Source: Methanomicrobiales archaeon
Lineage (GTDB): Archaea; Halobacteriota; Methanomicrobia; Methanomicrobiales; Methanospirillaceae
NCBI GenBank assembly: GCA_012729535.1
Contig: JAAYCY010000036.1
Location: 1 to 33,074 of the forward strand
DNA length: 33,074 nucleotides
Direction of reading: 5' to 3'
Part shown: piece by piece, positions 11,300 to 28,341 of the stretch
Position numbering within the stretch: the stretch's first letter is position 1
How the letters are laid out: every line of letters starts with the position of its first letter
Translations under genes and position numbers: made by a program
Notes under the pieces: model-generated
What the model saw: only the letters and a program-made list of their open reading frames with translations
Told to the model about the DNA's origin: nothing
Databases searched by the model: none

Positions 11300-12034
11300 A
11301 TGGCAAACAAAAAATCACCGGCCAGTGGATGGCCAATTGTTCAAGGTGACTTCCATACGGGAGACGCAAACAGCCCGGTGGCAGTTGTTACCATGGGATC
11401 CCACCTCGATGAAGCGGCAATCTGTAGTGCAGGAGCAGCCATCGCCGGATCCTGTAAAACCGAAAACCTCGGTCTGGAGAAAGTCATTGCAAATGTCATC
11501 TCCAACCCGAACATCAGGTTTGTAATTACCTGTGGTACCGAGGTTAAGGGTCACCTCTCCGGTCAAAGTCTTATCGCACTTCATCAAAATGGAGTGGAAG
11601 GAGGAAAGATCATCGGGACAAAAGGAGCAATCCCGTTTATCGAAAACCTCTCCGGAGATCACATCAAGCGGTTCCAGGAACAGGTCGAATTTGTTGACAT
11701 AATGGAATCTGAAGACATCGGAGCAATCTCTGCTAAGATAAAAGAACTGGAAAGTAGAGATCCCGGTGCATTCGACGCTGATCCCATGGTCATTGAGATC
11801 AAAGACGATTCAGGTGGAGCTGCTGAGGAAGGTGGCGAAGTCAGACCAATGTCTGCTGAAGTCGCACTTATCCATGCACGGATGAAAACCGTCCAGGGAA
11901 TGATCACCAATTTAGGTTTCTATGATAAATTTGCAGCTGGTGTATACGGTGGCAAAGTAGAAGGCCTGATGATTGGTCTGATTGTTTCATTTGTGATAGT
12001 AGGACTCCTGCTTGCTGGACATGGGGTGAGTTAA
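11300..12034 (+). CDS. mtrA: Tetrahydromethanopterin S-methyltransferase subunit A (corrinoid subunit, membrane-anchored)
   Basis: MtrA carries the corrinoid (5-hydroxybenzimidazolyl cobamide or related) that accepts the methyl group from MtrH and passes it to coenzyme M. The 244-residue product has the cytosolic Rossmann-like corrinoid domain at residues 10-165. His85, in [14 protein letters not shown], corresponds to the histidine that ligates cobalt in the family. A linker and an amphipathic segment ([18 protein letters not shown]) follow, then a C-terminal transmembrane anchor, [19 protein letters not shown]. This is the conventional MtrA. A GAGG Shine-Dalgarno precedes the ATG. A second, almost identical corrinoid domain is encoded at 12238. 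Confidence 0.96.
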
Positions 12035-12238
12035 GTGTCAGAAGAGAAGAAATCAGGTCCAATACGCATGGCAGCAATTGAAGCCATGGTGTCTGACATG
12101 AAATACAAGGGACAAATCCTTGCACGAACCAACAAACTTGAATCCGGTATCATGAACTCTGGTATGATTGGATTCTCCATTGGTCTTGCATTTGCCCTGG
12201 TTCTGGTTGTTCCAGTCGTTCTGCTGGGAGGATTCTAA
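12035..12238 (+). CDS. mtrF: Tetrahydromethanopterin S-methyltransferase subunit F
   Basis: A 67-residue subunit with a basic amphipathic N-terminal helix ([22 protein letters not shown]) and one transmembrane helix at the C-terminus ([19 protein letters not shown]). Both length and layout match MtrF of other methanogens (about 65-70). The start is GTG directly after the mtrA stop codon, and its own stop overlaps the next ATG as TAATG, showing tight coupling. MtrF is a minor stalk/anchor subunit whose exact role is not settled. Confidence 0.9.
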
Positions 12239-12984
12239 TGGCAGAAAAGGGAGAACCAGCAGCAGGCTGGCCGATTGTCCAGGGTGACTTCCACACTGGT
12301 GATCCAAAAAGCCCGGTGGCAGTTGTTACTATGGGGTCCCACCTCGATGAAGCGGCTATTTGCAGTGCAGGTGCCGCAATCGCTGGATCCTGTAAGACTG
12401 AAAACCTCGGTCTGGAGAAAGTTATTGCAAACGTCATCTCCAATCCGAACATCAGATTTGTCATTACCTGCGGCACTGAAGTCAAAGGACATCTCTCCGG
12501 GCAGAGCTTTATCGCACTTCACCAGAACGGTGTTGAGGGCGGTAAAATCATCGGGACAAAAGGAGCAATTCCGTTCATTGAGAACCTCACCGGAGACCAT
12601 ATCAAAAGGTTCCAGGAACAGGTCGAAGTTGTCGACATTATGGAGTCTGAAGATCTCGGAGCGATATCAGCAAAAATTAACGAACTGACAGCTCGGGATC
12701 CCGGAGCATTCCCAGGTGGGGCAATGGTTGTCGAGATCAAGGAAGAAGGTGGAGGCGGTGCTGGTGCAGCCAGTGCAACTGCGAATCCGCAGTTCCTTGA
12801 GATCGAGTCCAAGTTGGATGCAATTGAAACAAAACTCGAATTTGTCGAGGGTGAAATTGCCCAGCGGGTCGGACGTAAAGTCGGGCGTGATATCGGTATT
12901 CTCTACGGTATCGTAGCCGGACTGATGACCTACATAATCGTAACAGAATTACTGCCAAAATTGCTCGAAATACTCGCACATTAA
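12238..12984 (+). CDS. MtrA-MtrG fusion: second corrinoid domain joined to MtrG-like anchor
   Basis: This 248-residue protein repeats the MtrA corrinoid domain (residues 8-165, His85 conserved). By eye only 9 of 148 positions differ from the first MtrA over residues 11-158. It does not end with the MtrA anchor. After a Gly/Ala-rich linker (about 171-182) it continues as an MtrG-like segment: [20 protein letters not shown], then [15 protein letters not shown], then one transmembrane helix. No separate mtrG exists in the operon, and this gene occupies its usual place between mtrF and mtrH. The fused protein therefore most likely serves as MtrG while adding a second corrinoid site per unit of complex. 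That consequence is inference; the domain layout is seen directly. Confidence 0.88.
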
Positions 12985-12995
12985 GGTGATAACCC

Positions 12996-14018
12996 ATGTT
13001 CATGTTTGAAAAGGAACAGACGGTCCTCGACTTCAACGGCTATAAGCTCGGAGGACAGCCGGGAGAATACCCCCGGGCACTTGGTGCATCGATTTTCTAT
13101 AATAAGCACGAAACCGTGATCGATGACCACACAGGAAAGATTGACAAAGCAAAAGCAGAAGCACTCTGGAACCGGTGTTTAGAACTCTATGACACCACCG
13201 GGCACTGGTACTTCTGTCAGATTATTGGTGAATATCCAGAAGCATTTGAAAGTTACATTGACTGGTTCTGTGGTATTGATGACCAGTTCCCATTCCTTAT
13301 GGACTCATCTGCACCAGAAGCACTCGCTCATGCATGTAAGTATGTTACTGATGCAGGCGTTGCTGACCGTGCTGTTTACAACTCCATTAACGGATCCATT
13401 GGACCTGAGAACATTGAAGCACTCAAGAACAGTGATGTGAATGCGGCAATTGTGCTTGCATTCAACCCAGGTGATCCGACTGTTCGTGGTCGTGAGAAAG
13501 TGCTCGCAGAAGGTGGTGTTGCTGGTCAGGAGAAATCCATGATCGGAATCGCAGAAGAGTGTGGAATTACCCGCCCGATTCTCGATACTGCAGCAACTCC
13601 GCTTGGACTTGGATCAGGCGGTTCATTCCGTGAGATCCTTGCATGTAAGGCAATCCACGGACTGCCAACCGGTGGTGCATACCACAATATGACCGTCTCC
13701 TGGACCTGGCTCAAACGCTGGAGAAAGAGCGGCATTCTTGACCGGTACAAAGATGCAGGAGTTCTTCTCGAGCAGATGGGACACCACCACTTTGGTGGGG
13801 TAGAGGGTATCCGTCAGGCTGCCTGGTCCTCTGCAGATATCGGCTGTAACATTATGGCAGCAACTCTTGGTGCTGACCTTATCATGTTCGGTCCAATCGA
13901 GAACTGTGAGGCAACCGCAACCGCAATGGCATTTACTGACATTGTTCTTGCAGAAACCCTCCGTGAACTCGGTGGAGACATAAAAGCTGAAATCCACCCA
14001 ATTAACAAACTGGTATAA
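12996..14018 (+). CDS. mtrH: Tetrahydromethanopterin S-methyltransferase subunit H
   Basis: MtrH is the cytosolic TIM-barrel methyltransferase subunit that moves the methyl group from methyl-H4MPT/H4SPT onto the corrinoid of MtrA. The 340-residue product (family about 310-330) contains AVYNSINGSIGPENIEALK, LDTAATPLGLGSGGSFREIL and CNIMAATLGADLIMFGPIENCE in overlapping parts, all typical. GGTGAT lies a few bases before the ATG; ATG 13002 is an alternative. It is the last gene of the operon. A T-run (14027-14034) after the stop may terminate transcription, and a decayed hgcA/hgcB remnant follows at once. Confidence 0.96.
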   Translation: MFMFEKEQTVLDFNGYKLGGQPGEYPRALGASIFYNKHETVIDDHTGKIDKAKAEALWNRCLELYDTTGHWYFCQIIGEYPEAFESYIDWFCGIDDQFPFLMDSSAPEALAHACKYVTDAGVADRAVYNSINGSIGPENIEALKNSDVNAAIVLAFNPGDPTVRGREKVLAEGGVAGQEKSMIGIAEECGITRPILDTAATPLGLGSGGSFREILACKAIHGLPTGGAYHNMTVSWTWLKRWRKSGILDRYKDAGVLLEQMGHHHFGGVEGIRQAAWSSADIGCNIMAATLGADLIMFGPIENCEATATAMAFTDIVLAETLRELGGDIKAEIHPINKLV

Positions 14019-14039
14019 ACCCAGTACCTTTTTTCGTAA

Positions 14040-14272
14040 CCCATTCGGGTGAAATTTATCCATGAAAACAGGCTGGTTCTCTTACCAGTTGAAAACAGGT
14101 ATGTTTTTCTCCCAATGATTGGTGCAATCCTTTTTCCCTCCTTGTAGGTCCAGTTGCAGCTGCAGCAGTATTCATTGCAGCCCTGAGTGGAACGGTATTA
14201 TTTCCAGCTCTTCTTCCTATCATCCCGTTCACCGGCTTTAGTGTAAAAGGACTGAATATCGGGTTTATTATT
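14040..14272 (+). pseudogene. hgcA: Remnant of hgcA (C-terminal membrane part of corrinoid protein of mercury methylation)
   Basis: HgcA is a corrinoid protein with a C-terminal membrane domain that methylates Hg(II). Two reading frames here hold fragments resembling that membrane part. The first (14040-14144) reads IHENRLVLLPVENRYVFLP and stops at TAG 14145. The second (from 14141, shifted frame) reads VGPVAAAAVFIAALSGTVLF, then PALLPIIPFTGFSVKGLNIG, like the conserved LLPW-I-P-x-x-x-F-S-x-K-G end of HgcA. The corrinoid domain with its N-V/I-W-C-A-A-G-K motif is absent. At about 14262-14276 the frame runs straight into HgcB-like sequence, so an internal deletion removed the gene junction. 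The HgcA part alone would be a modest call; the attached HgcB relic makes it convincing. Confidence 0.6.
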
Positions 14273-14491
14273 GAAATATATCCTCACCAGGTCTTTATAC
14301 GGGAAGAAAAAGTAATTTGGCTTTCTCATCCACAACGATACATGGAATGTGTAGCATGTGCACAAAATTGTACTATTAAGGCTATTTCCGTTGAAAGTTG
14401 GATCAAGTGTGCATAGGCAATGGTATCTGCAGCCATTCAAGGAAAAAGCATGGATGAAGGGACCTGCGGGAGTGAGGATGGATGTTGCTGA
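14264..14491 (+). pseudogene. hgcB: Remnant of hgcB (ferredoxin of mercury methylation), with premature stop
   Basis: HgcB is a small ferredoxin with two CxxCxxCxxxC motifs, a further conserved Cys in a G-V-G-C-A context and a C-terminal Cys pair. The frame here reads IEIYPHQVFIREEKVIWL, matching the end of the first cluster motif (VCPHGVF) with Cys replaced by Tyr. Then comes RYMECVACAQNCTIKAISVE, matching CMECGACxxNCPxxAISV with the first Cys and the Pro lost. Next is SWIKCA, matching GVGCA. A TAG stop at 14414-14416 follows, and the same frame continues AMVSAAIQGKSMDEGTCGSE to DGCC and TGA at 14489-14491. The terminal Cys pair is thus still readable. No start codon remains. The gene is inactive but recently enough decayed to be recognised. 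Confidence 0.78.
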
Positions 14492-14675
14492 AAATTATAG
14501 TTCTATCATGAACACATCCATTCACCTCGCACAAATATTTATATATTATTTTTTTTTATAATGCAAAAAGTATTAGAGTAAGTTTTAGTAGTGCGAGAGA
14601 AAATATCTGATAAGTACTTCTCATACCATCTCACCAGAATTTAAAAAATCTAATATTTCATTGCTCTGATATAAA

Positions 14676-17273
14676 ATGCTACAAAACAAAATAATTAAAA
14701 AAATCTGTTTTATCTGCAATAGTGAATCAAAATACCTAAAAAGAACATCAAAGCTGCATCCGGATTCTAAAGGACCATCAGGAATTGTCGATCTGGATGG
14801 GCGTCCAAAAGAACTGACAGAATTTGTATTAAGATACTATCTTGAAGTCTGTCCTCATTGCGGAAATGTTGCTGAAAATATCGCAGATGAAACATCAATA
14901 AACGAGGACTATCTCAGATCTTCTGAATATCTCAGTCTTTGTGATGTCAAAGGTTCGTCATCTCCCAATCTTTTCCTGCGGGCTGCATATATTAAACTGG
15001 GTGAAAATAACCTGGAAAAGGCAACCGAATATTATCTGTATGCAGCCTGGTGTGCTGAAAGTCTGTTTAATCATGAATTATCTAGGTTCTGTAGAAAAAA
15101 TGTCATCTCACTAATTTTTGCCAACGGTAGATCATTTGCAGATATTCCTTCGAAAAAATGGATCAAGGTCATTGATATTATACGGAGAACTGGAGATTTT
15201 AACACCGCGATAAACCACTGTTTAAGTCTTCACAAAATTGCAGGCCCTATGCTTCAGGCTGGACTGGAATTCGAACTATTATGTGCAAAAAATGGTGATC
15301 AGGAGACCCATACAAATATCGACATTGCAAAGTTCATACAATATAAAAAAAACACGGGGAAAAAATACGAAGAATTTACAATGAGTGGGAAATCCTACTC
15401 AGTCGAAGAAAACTGCCATGGAGATGGATGGTACTGGATTGCAGATACAAGGACACTTACGCTCTCGAATTATCATGGATCAGAAATTTTTGCATCTGGT
15501 GATATTACTATTAAGGTTGAGCAATCAGACAACCAGATAAACAGCCATCACGGACCTGGAATTCATATTATCAACGGAAATCTTACGATAATTGCCCCTG
15601 GAATACTGTCGATACAAGGAGAAGCAGAGGGGATCCTAGTATCCCATGGGACTATAGAAATCAGCCAGACAGTACTAGACATCCAGACGAATGGATACGG
15701 GATTTATGCATCAGAAACGATATCCCTGATTAATGGCTGTGTAGTTGAGATTCATTCGAAATCAACCGGATTAAAATCAATTAAAGGTGGATTGAATGCC
15801 AATATGGGCACCGTTTTAATGCTATTCACCATAGAGACAGGAATAGACATTTCACAAGATGCCACCATTGTTACTGGTCTTTATCGCATAGAATCATCTG
15901 ATGGATTCGGAATACATATTCATCATGGATCTCTGTTATTATCAGACTGCGTCCTTGAAATCATTTGCAGGGAAACGTGTATTTTTATTGATGACGGGAA
16001 TCTTGTTTTCAAAGTTATGAGATGTACTCTGGATGGAGAATCAGGAATTCAAGTACATGGTTCATGTACCCTTGAGAATAGTATTATCTCAGTATCCGGA
16101 GAAAGTTTCGGATTGCTGGTCTTCACGGACATGACAGTTGAAGGTGGAAAATTAGAGGTTTTTGGAAAGACAGCCATATCAGTTCATGGAAAATTGCACA
16201 TATTAAATAGCAATATCTCTGCATCCGGGGAGACTGCAATACTATCAATGGGTGATGTGACTTTTTCCGGTGGTAACCTGATGCTGACCGGAGATGATGC
16301 AATGCGTGTTTCCCAGAACTTTGTTATTACTAACGGAATTCTAATAGGAGTCGGTAAAATCAGTGGTTTTTTTATAGACGGCACATATTCACAATCAGGA
16401 GGGGATGTATCTGTTTCCGGTGAAGCACAGTATGGGATGAAGATCTCAGGCAAAGAGATGGTAATGACTGGTGGTGCCCTCATGGTATCTGGGAGGGAAT
16501 GTGGACTGGAGGTTTCAGGAGACGTCCTGTTACTCGTCTTTACCCTCAAGACAACGGGAAATATCGGATTTAAAGTAGCCGGCTCCCTAAAAATGGACAA
16601 AGGAGAACTAAAGGTTTCAGGAGAAGAAATCGGTCTTTCCATAAAAGGAGGCACAATTCATGTTGGATCGACACTTTCTATACTCATAACAGGAAATACT
16701 GGCATATATGCCACAAATGACATTGAAATTTCCGGAGGAACTACACACATTAACAGCCAGTTGGGTGGAATTGTGCAGGAATCAGGAAACCTCATTATCT
16801 CTGGCGGGGTTATCGAAATAACTGCAGAGGAATTTGGTATTCTTCTTCAATCCGGTTCAATGTTTTGTCAGGGGGGAATAATATCAGTGACGAATACCCG
16901 TATGATGGACCTTGGTGGCTCTGGTATTGTGATTAGCCAGGGAAACCTGCTGGCAACCAGTCTTATGACCATCAAGGGTGAAAGTTATGGCATATCTGTC
17001 CCATGTGGCGATATTTTATTAAAACAAGGGCGGTTAAAAGTAGAAGCTATCCGATCAGCGATCACTGCTGATACACTCATGATAGATAATTTCACTTCAC
17101 TCACTGCCTATGGAAAGAAAAATAGTGCGATAGTTCTCAATAAAATGCATTTCGGGGATGATAAAAGAATACGTCTCTGGGCAGGAACATCAGAAAAAAC
17201 AGCGTTGGAAGATGTTTATTCAGGCCAGAGATATGTCCATGTATATACCATGGATGAAACAGGTACAATATGA
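14676..17273 (+). CDS. Large beta-helix repeat protein with N-terminal zinc-ribbon (DUF2225-like) domain
   Basis: An 865-residue protein of unknown role. Residues 1-80 resemble the start of DUF2225: an early CxxC (CFICN), then YYLEVCPHCGNVAENI, a likely zinc site. Residues about 95-215 look alpha-helical, with TPR-like features (LGENNLEKATEYYLYAAWCA). From about 250 to the end runs a long beta-solenoid of short Gly-rich strands such as GIHIINGNLTIIAPGILSI and GILLQSGSMFCQGGIISV, recurring about every 40-45 residues. There is no signal peptide or transmembrane segment, so it appears cytosolic, unusual for such a helix. Carbohydrate-binding Cthe_2159-like proteins share the repeat style. It ends 10 bases before the region of the membrane-protein gene, probably one transcript. 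Codon use is more A/T-rich than in mtr. Confidence 0.75.
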   Translation: MLQNKIIKKICFICNSESKYLKRTSKLHPDSKGPSGIVDLDGRPKELTEFVLRYYLEVCPHCGNVAENIADETSINEDYLRSSEYLSLCDVKGSSSPNLFLRAAYIKLGENNLEKATEYYLYAAWCAESLFNHELSRFCRKNVISLIFANGRSFADIPSKKWIKVIDIIRRTGDFNTAINHCLSLHKIAGPMLQAGLEFELLCAKNGDQETHTNIDIAKFIQYKKNTGKKYEEFTMSGKSYSVEENCHGDGWYWIADTRTLTLSNYHGSEIFASGDITIKVEQSDNQINSHHGPGIHIINGNLTIIAPGILSIQGEAEGILVSHGTIEISQTVLDIQTNGYGIYASETISLINGCVVEIHSKSTGLKSIKGGLNANMGTVLMLFTIETGIDISQDATIVTGLYRIESSDGFGIHIHHGSLLLSDCVLEIICRETCIFIDDGNLVFKVMRCTLDGESGIQVHGSCTLENSIISVSGESFGLLVFTDMTVEGGKLEVFGKTAISVHGKLHILNSNISASGETAILSMGDVTFSGGNLMLTGDDAMRVSQNFVITNGILIGVGKISGFFIDGTYSQSGGDVSVSGEAQYGMKISGKEMVMTGGALMVSGRECGLEVSGDVLLLVFTLKTTGNIGFKVAGSLKMDKGELKVSGEEIGLSIKGGTIHVGSTLSILITGNTGIYATNDIEISGGTTHINSQLGGIVQESGNLIISGGVIEITAEEFGILLQSGSMFCQGGIISVTNTRMMDLGGSGIVISQGNLLATSLMTIKGESYGISVPCGDILLKQGRLKVEAIRSAITADTLMIDNFTSLTAYGKKNSAIVLNKMHFGDDKRIRLWAGTSEKTALEDVYSGQRYVHVYTMDETGTI

Positions 17274-26400: not shown

Positions 26401-26829
26401 ATGTATAGCGAAAAAGTAATGGATCATTTTATGAACCCCCGGAACCAGGGGGAAATATCCGACGCCGATGGTGTTGGTGAGGTTGGAAATCCGTCATGCG
26501 GTGATATTATGCGGATTTTCATCAAGGTAAAAGATAATATCATCACCGATGTGAAGTTTCAGACTTTCGGGTGTGGTGCTGCCATTGCATCAAGCAGTAT
26601 GGCAACCGAACTAATCAAGGGAAAAACACTGGAAGAAGCCTGGGAAATGTCCAATAAGGCTGTTGTAGAGGCTCTTGAAGGACTACCACCGGTTAAGGTG
26701 CATTGTTCGGTACTTGCAGAAGACGGGATTCACCAGGCAATCAATGACTACCGGATAAAACAGGGACTTTCACCCTGGGAAGAAAAGGGGGGGCACACCC
26801 ACAGTCATGATGATGAAACCTGCGAATAA
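26401..26829 (+). CDS. nifU: Iron-sulfur cluster scaffold NifU/IscU (N-terminal type)
   Basis: A 142-residue IscU-like scaffold on which [2Fe-2S]/[4Fe-4S] clusters are built. The three ligand cysteines sit in VGNPSCGD, FQTFGCGAA and KVHCSVLAED, with the conserved Asp of CGD next to the first. It lacks the central [2Fe-2S] and C-terminal Nfu domains of nitrogen-fixation NifU and ends in a His/acidic tail (GGHTHSHDDETCE) that could hold iron. Its ATG directly follows the nifS stop. A short T-run (26834-26838) after the stop may terminate the unit. Confidence 0.94.
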   Translation: MYSEKVMDHFMNPRNQGEISDADGVGEVGNPSCGDIMRIFIKVKDNIITDVKFQTFGCGAAIASSSMATELIKGKTLEEAWEMSNKAVVEALEGLPPVKVHCSVLAEDGIHQAINDYRIKQGLSPWEEKGGHTHSHDDETCE

Positions 26830-26952
26830 TCCATTTTTAATAACACTTCTCATCTGGTAAGGCATGGCAGTAAATGCCCAGGTATAGTACTCGGGTATAC
26901 CTGACGAAAATGTTGAAAATTGTCACCTGTGATTGACAAATCAACAGGAAAA

Positions 26953-28341
26953 TCAGTCATCAATATTCTGATCCCGGAGATTTCCCCGGACAAGGGAGAA
27001 GAATATCCCCAGAATACAGAGCACGGAAAAGAACTGAAATCCGATACTCATAGCACTCATAAGTTGTCCTGACACATCCGGAGTAATCTCTACTTTTCCA
27101 ACGACGACGGCGATTATCATCATCGCTATTCCCATCGAGAACATCTGGCCCAAAAGCCGCATCGTTCCAAGGGTTCCGGATGCAATCCCATAATACCTTT
27201 TTTCTACCGAACTCATGATTGCATTGGTATTAGGGGAGGAGAAGAGTGCATATCCAAGGCCAATGACAGCAAGAATTACCATCAGGACAATCATGGAAGT
27301 TACAGGAGAGAGAAAACTAAGCGCAATGAGACCGACCGCTATTACCGCCATTCCTGCGGATGATATTTTTCCAGGTTCTATCCGGTCAGAGAGGCTTCCG
27401 GCATATGACGAAAAAGCAGCCTGAACAACGGGCTGTGCTACCAGGATAATCCCCGCCTCTAATGATCCAAATCCCCGGATATACTGGAGATAGAGACTTA
27501 AAAAGAACGTAATCGCAAAGGTAGAACCATAGTTAATGAGTGCGGCAAGATTTGAACAGGCAAAGACCCGGTTCTTACTGAATAACGAAAAGTGAATCAG
27601 GGGATATGGTTCACGGTGGTCATGGAAGATGAATAGCCCCATAATTATAAAACCAAGGGCCAGTGAGGCATATCCATGGATCTCCGGAAGCTCGGAAAAT
27701 CCGATCATAATTGCAGTCAGACTGATACCATAAAGGAGGGCCCCTTTCAGATCAAACCGTTCTCCGGCTGCATCTGCCCATTCTCCCCGGAGGAAGAGCG
27801 ATATCATGACAATAATACATAGACCGATGGGAATATTAATAAGAAAAATACTACGCCATCCAAACTCCGATACCAGGATACCCCCGAGGAATGGTCCGGC
27901 TGAAAGCCCAAGATAGACAGATGTTGTGTATATTCCAAGGACTTTTCCCCGTTTCATAGGATTTGTAACCGAGGTCAGGATGGCAACTGCAGTCCCATAG
28001 ATCATGGCAGCACCTATTCCCTGCAGTAACCGTGAGGAGAGGAGCATCCCGGAAGATGCCGATATTATCATGAGCCCGGAAGCGATAGTAAAGACAGTAA
28101 TTCCGATGTGAAGAACCTTCTTTCTCCCAAAAATATCTCCAATTTTCCCGAAGGGAACCAGAAATGCTGCAGAAGCCAGCAGGTAAATACTATTGAGCCA
28201 ACTTAATGACACCGCATCAAGAGAATATTCATCGGCGATGGAAGGCAGGGCAATATTTACCGCTGAAATATCAAAAGGAGTGAGAAAACCACAAAAAAGT
28301 GCGATGATGAGAGTATAGAGGGGAATATCAGGACGCTTCAT
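26953..28341 (-). CDS. MFS drug/solute exporter, DHA2 (EmrB/QacA, 14-TM) type
   Basis: A 462-residue major facilitator with about fourteen hydrophobic segments. The N-terminal part has DISAVNIALPSIADEY and the loop 2-3 signature FGKIGDIFGRKKVLHIG. The motif C region reads YLGLSAGPFLGGILVSEFGW, typical of antiporters that export drugs. The substrate cannot be predicted. The orientation is convergent with nifU, and 72 bases separate its start from the thiM stop, so it may share a transcript with thiM. There is nothing to tie it to methanogenesis. Confidence 0.9.
   Translation of the reverse strand: MKRPDIPLYTLIIALFCGFLTPFDISAVNIALPSIADEYSLDAVSLSWLNSIYLLASAAFLVPFGKIGDIFGRKKVLHIGITVFTIASGLMIISASSGMLLSSRLLQGIGAAMIYGTAVAILTSVTNPMKRGKVLGIYTTSVYLGLSAGPFLGGILVSEFGWRSIFLINIPIGLCIIVMISLFLRGEWADAAGERFDLKGALLYGISLTAIMIGFSELPEIHGYASLALGFIIMGLFIFHDHREPYPLIHFSLFSKNRVFACSNLAALINYGSTFAITFFLSLYLQYIRGFGSLEAGIILVAQPVVQAAFSSYAGSLSDRIEPGKISSAGMAVIAVGLIALSFLSPVTSMIVLMVILAVIGLGYALFSSPNTNAIMSSVEKRYYGIASGTLGTMRLLGQMFSMGIAMMIIAVVVGKVEITPDVSGQLMSAMSIGFQFFSVLCILGIFFSLVRGNLRDQNIDD

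Follow-up and report, generated by a model that had tools for sequence, protein, structure and literature searches.

The segment at positions 14043-14491 of the window (the whole stretch of 33,074 nucleotides analyzed here) is, with high confidence, what remains of a second hgcAB pair, now a non-functional pseudogene; this pair would once have stood complete behind the mtr operon, and an intact hgcAB pair is kept on contig C17 of the same genome. There is good support for a real pseudogene, though one of an ordinary sort, derived from a known gene pair. The hgcAB pair is used as a marker for predicting methylmercury production in microbes. Its patchy occurrence is commonly credited to transfers and losses, and horizontal transfer together with the gain and loss of genes has been named as the cause (PMC7438021). 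In a remnant that can still be read, such a loss of hgcAB is physically and directly documented. No earlier report of an hgcAB pseudogene was found in a search confined to a collection of open-access papers.

The host genome (G000; 3.09 Mb in 86 contigs, 96.8% complete, 1.6% contamination) most probably belongs to Methanospirillum, the presumed source lineage of the window. Genomes G002, G007, and G009, of the same genus, were used in comparisons.

Homology and structure of the segment behind mtrH

The last gene of the mtr operon, mtrH, is intact and lies directly upstream at 12996-14018 on the plus strand (NCBIfam TIGR01114, E=2e-106). It is followed by a gap of 657 bases (14019-14675) before the next long ORF at 14676, and only 24 bases separate its stop from the start of the remnant. 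Both the gap length and the HgcA-like and HgcB-like peptides quoted in the sequence-only reading were recovered, all peptides lying at their given place in frame 14042+3n, as was the TAG at 14414-14416, after which the frame runs on to GCC-TGA (TGA at 14489-14491). Following masking of this stop, frame 14042+3n matched the HgcB profile NF040864 (E=2.2e-17, 62.7 bits, profile positions 17-93 of 93) and the HgcA profile NF040863 (E=6.5e-9, 35.4 bits, profile positions 208-259), with no other notable profile match in that frame. The same reading had named a missing HgcB match as grounds for giving up its proposal of an hgcA and hgcB fossil behind mtrH; the two matches, in the right order and orientation, bear the proposal out. 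Readthrough of mtrH into the remnant was considered and rejected, the frames being different and stops lying between them. No RNA family was found in the interval behind mtrH, and promoter- and terminator-like matches in it were uninformative, save for a possible weak mtrH terminator at 14009-14025.

The layout of the remnant was obtained by tblastn of the genome's own intact C17 proteins against the locus, resulting in three colinear blocks, all on the plus strand. The first HgcA segment (14043-14120, frame 14040+3n) covers the linker end and the start of the membrane domain, HgcA residues about 180-205, and reads IRVKFIHENRLVLLPVENRYVFLPMI. Against residues 181-205 of the intact C17 HgcA, 10 of 25 positions were identical (E=0.002); the segment was also detected against most Methanomicrobiales HgcA loci, at up to 56%. 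The HgcA stretch quoted earlier was thus correct, but the remnant starts before it, at 14043, with its first membrane segment in another frame. At 14121-14146, codon alignment gave 26 nt against the 30 (10 codons) of intact genes, and this net 4-nt loss produces a frameshift before 14147. The second HgcA segment (14147-14272, frame 14042+3n, HgcA profile NF040863) continues the membrane domain at residues about 214-257 and is 57% identical to the intact HgcA over 46 residues (tblastn). Finally, the HgcB remnant (14273-14491, same frame, placed by the HgcB profile NF040864 and by alignment to 105 intact loci) runs from codon 25 to the end of the gene and is 49% identical to the intact HgcB over 74 residues (tblastn).

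The second HgcA segment is fused directly to hgcB codon 25 at 14272/14273, in one frame. At this fusion the last ~87 hgcA codons and the first 24 hgcB codons are gone, roughly 340 bp as judged on the C17 pair, whose hgcA and hgcB overlap by one base. In addition, the first ~180 hgcA codons, including the corrinoid domain, are absent from 14019-14491. The internal deletion proposed earlier therefore holds for the hgcA-hgcB join, as does the point decay proposed with it, but not as a single event: there were at least two losses, of the 5′ corrinoid half and of the HgcA end together with the HgcB start, as well as a short indel that shifts the frame. Two imperfect direct repeats of 25 nt (72%; 14063-14087 and 14090-14114, noted as 27 nt apart) were also seen within the HgcA remnant and may be due to chance.

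Disabling changes and decay

The remnant shares with the hgcA and hgcB genes of Methanospirillum and other Methanomicrobiales (NF040863, NF040864) the gene order, the membrane-domain sequence, the region of the second HgcB cluster, the Cys-Ala motif, and the C-terminal Cys pair. Unlike them, it has no corrinoid domain, HgcA C-terminus, HgcB N-terminus, or start codon, lacks cluster cysteines, and carries a frameshift and a TAG. With residues 1 to about 180 absent, the cap-helix cysteine of N(V/I)WCAAGK is missing. Of the five-helix C-terminal membrane domain of HgcA, only residues about 180-257 are left, frameshifted and with the end deleted. Of the two CxxCxxCxxxCP motifs of HgcB, the first has lost its first three cysteines by deletion and its CPH now reads YPH, and the second, CMECGACxxNCP, reads YMECVACAQNCT; the two Cys to Tyr changes lie at 14279 and 14339. 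The Cys before Ala (Cys73 of ND132) and the C-terminal Cys pair are present as WIKCA and GCC-TGA, with the TAG between them. This TAG stands at the Trp codon of the Cys-Ala-Trp found in most intact HgcB. Across the open stretch 14093-14413, the sole ATG, GTG, or TTG is the ATG at 14342, 24 codons before the TAG. The NCBIfam curated cut-offs (275 bits for HgcA, 99 for HgcB) were not reached by the remnant, at 35.4 and 62.7 bits. Significant homology to both genes in order, combined with a frameshift, an in-frame stop, and no start, identifies the segment as a pseudogene.

Constraint was assessed at residue and codon level. In an alignment to the 105 loci having both genes, the remnant has lost 10 of the 45 residues conserved at ≥95% among intact homologs, including three glycines, the Pro that follows the final cluster Cys, and two [4Fe-4S] cysteines, each replaced by Tyr. 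At codon positions 1 and 2, the remnant differs from intact genes of the same genus about twice as often as these differ among themselves, while position 3 is similar. The ratio of third-position to first-plus-second-position differences is 0.76-0.93 for the remnant versus 1.12-2.13 between intact genes of the genus, showing relaxed constraint at positions 1 and 2. The terminal branch of the remnant measures 2.16 changes per site against a median of 0.22, ten times as long. The codon-position and branch data fit long evolution without constraint at the protein level. Decay is not extreme, since the ~450 bp hold just one frameshift and one in-frame stop and the second HgcA segment keeps most conserved residues.

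Two readings that would deny pseudogene status were weighed. Many ferredoxins match HgcB weakly, so that the similarity might be due to chance or to a generic ferredoxin or membrane protein. In a six-frame search of the whole genome, however, the remnant came second among the HgcB matches (62.3 bits), behind the intact gene, with about 68 further ferredoxin matches at 44.4 bits or less. As the 62 bits of the remnant stand far above the 44 or less of every ferredoxin in the genome outside the intact HgcB, chance similarity is excluded for practical purposes; the adjacent HgcA match is moreover specific, in order, and in the same direction. In the genome-wide HgcA search the remnant ranked third (34.4 bits), behind the intact gene and a gene on contig C80 with a match to the CdhD family as well. 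That the segment encodes a working short HgcA-HgcB fusion protein is also very unlikely. Both halves do share one open frame of 107 codons, and natural fused hgcAB exist, for example in Methanococcoides methylutens (PMC5893877), which likewise have HgcA and HgcB parts in one frame. Yet the join in the remnant, unlike that of natural fusions, is a deletion within both genes, and the fusion profile NF043039 gave no match to it. The HgcB part has no preceding start codon and has a TAG inside, its first three cluster cysteines are deleted and two more are changed, and the codon-position pattern is relaxed.

The intact hgcC-hgcA-hgcB set on contig C17

The sequence-only reading had suggested a possible loss of mercury methylation, unless an intact copy lay elsewhere. 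Such a copy is present: hgcA and hgcB were found at 26656-27917 of the 73-kb contig C17 with hgcC upstream, and the suggested loss is not supported. C17 hgcA scored 432 bits against NF040863 (cut-off 275), hgcB 115.6 bits against NF040864 (cut-off 99), and hgcC 125 bits against NF040962. The sequences carry the NVWCAAGK cap helix, both CxxCxxCxxxCP motifs, GCAW, and the C-terminal cysteines (GSCC), so that the pair is complete in all motifs. Mutation of HgcA Cys93 or HgcB Cys73 abolishes methylation in Desulfovibrio desulfuricans ND132 (PMC7305189), and the counterparts of both residues are present in the C17 pair. Methanospirillum hungatei JF-1, a carrier of hgcAB, methylates mercury in culture (PMC5893877), and the C17 pair would be expected to do so. 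Because the C17 pair is complete with its key residues, the remnant gives no ground for expecting loss of the trait, and the ability to make methylmercury has, judging from sequence, probably not been lost in this genome. A broken copy can sit beside a functional pair in one genome, so that short pieces of hgcA or hgcB recovered in surveys are no proof of the ability to methylate, nor of its absence.

At 1.6%, the contamination estimate for this genome does not exceed the values for the single-contig genomes of the genus (2-4%). The C17 gene secD has two copies in this genome; since it has two in the single-contig G001 as well, the doubling is neither evidence that C17 is foreign nor proof otherwise.

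The hgcC gene (AbrB/MazE-like, NF040962; L016:5991-6308, minus strand) lies directly upstream of hgcA in all compared members of the genus and in G017. The three genes form a conserved hgcC-hgcA-hgcB cassette at shifting positions, with differing surrounding genes.

Origin of the remnant

The genes behind mtrH vary across the genus and include serine acetyltransferase-like, cysteinyl-tRNA synthetase-like, DedA-like membrane protein, and TtuA/NcsA-like genes (names read from the sequences, TtuA/NcsA by profile match). The earlier reading had asked whether relatives carry a different intact small gene at this place; they carry unrelated full-size genes, with no trace of hgcA or hgcB in the stretches behind mtrH of 29 relatives (up to 1.5 kb, a few shorter at contig ends). 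Similarly, no mtr operon gene was found beside ~110 intact hgcAB loci, save for weak (30-39%) mtrA-like matches in two. A conserved hgcAB site behind mtrH is thus not supported, being absent from both ~29 mtrH loci and ~110 hgcAB loci. Among 61 genomes (its own plus relatives up to the order) searched at the DNA level, the same fossil occurred in no other genome, and among 108 genomes of the family searched at the protein level no other had a joined remnant, hgcA and hgcB matches being separate in the others. Genome G010 (3.7 Mb, 99% complete, MtrH 96% identical) has several of the window's downstream genes in another order and has no hgcA match at all, so that independent loss of hgcAB does occur in the genus. 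In another family member, hgcA was found split into three parts, the middle match containing a TAA (G026:C159:2374-3267, L043), which may be a younger pseudogene or an assembly error.

For the pseudogene reading, the following history is proposed. A complete hgcAB pair would have followed directly on the mtr operon in the Methanospirillum lineage of this genome; with no relative having intact hgcAB there, this parent copy is inferred rather than seen. A 5′ truncation up to the mtrH 3′ end would have removed the corrinoid domain and any hgcC, and a deletion of roughly 340 bp would have joined the middle of the HgcA membrane domain to hgcB codon 25. The rest would then have decayed via point changes and a small indel, with no HgcAB product made.

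The remnant belongs to the same family as the C17 set and has the same gene order. In contrast to the remnant, the C17 set is complete and motif-perfect; the two are 49-57% identical in protein and give no usable match at the DNA level. A recent duplication of the C17 pair was rejected on both grounds; at only about 50-58% identity, the remnant is no recent copy. Distances from the remnant to the various Methanomicrobiales HgcAB are all much alike (best 52%).

Two further accounts concern the origin of the pseudogene, not its status. The remnant could descend from a copy that never served as the main pair, either an ancient duplicate or a partial copy gained by horizontal transfer, an account that falls just short of an even chance. 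As no intact hgcAB occurs in ~29 mtrH loci, and none beside the mtr operon in ~110 hgcAB loci, the site does not appear to be an ancestral hgcAB place; the region from mtrH to the next shared genes also differs between species. Against this account, no donor-like sequence that would point to a parent stands out at the protein level. It is also possible, though rather unlikely, that the remnant represents the hgcAB first resident in the genome, later replaced through acquisition of the C17 pair (xenologous turnover). Besides the low protein identity between the two (49-57%), the pairing of C17 HgcA with G001 (87%, clade support 95/99) and not with G007 (72%), in spite of an MtrH closer to G007 (96%) than to G001 (94%), points this way. 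The surroundings of hgcAB, too, differ in each compared member of the genus, and only hgcC-hgcA-hgcB are kept together at varying positions. Against this, constrained trees for six candidate groups rejected no placement of the remnant (p-AU 0.27-0.51), and C17 secD is also closest to G001, so that the genome may be nearer G001 across much of its length. Two hgcAB generations in one genome, with the old, resident pair decaying behind mtrH and the functional pair acquired separately, are put forward as a tentative and doubtful scenario; if true, hgcAB turnover by replacement, not simple loss, would be directly visible in one methanogen genome.

Two other features of the window were noted. The ORF at 14676-17273 encodes a repetitive protein of 865 aa that looks like a beta-helix; it has no Pfam or NCBIfam match and no homolog in the mtrH regions of the genus sampled. 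Within the mtr operon, a small MtrG-like gene stands between two MtrA-like genes (11300-12034 and 12238-12984) whose products are nearly identical over the first 160 residues, and the same MtrA-like doubling is found in G007, G009, and G011.
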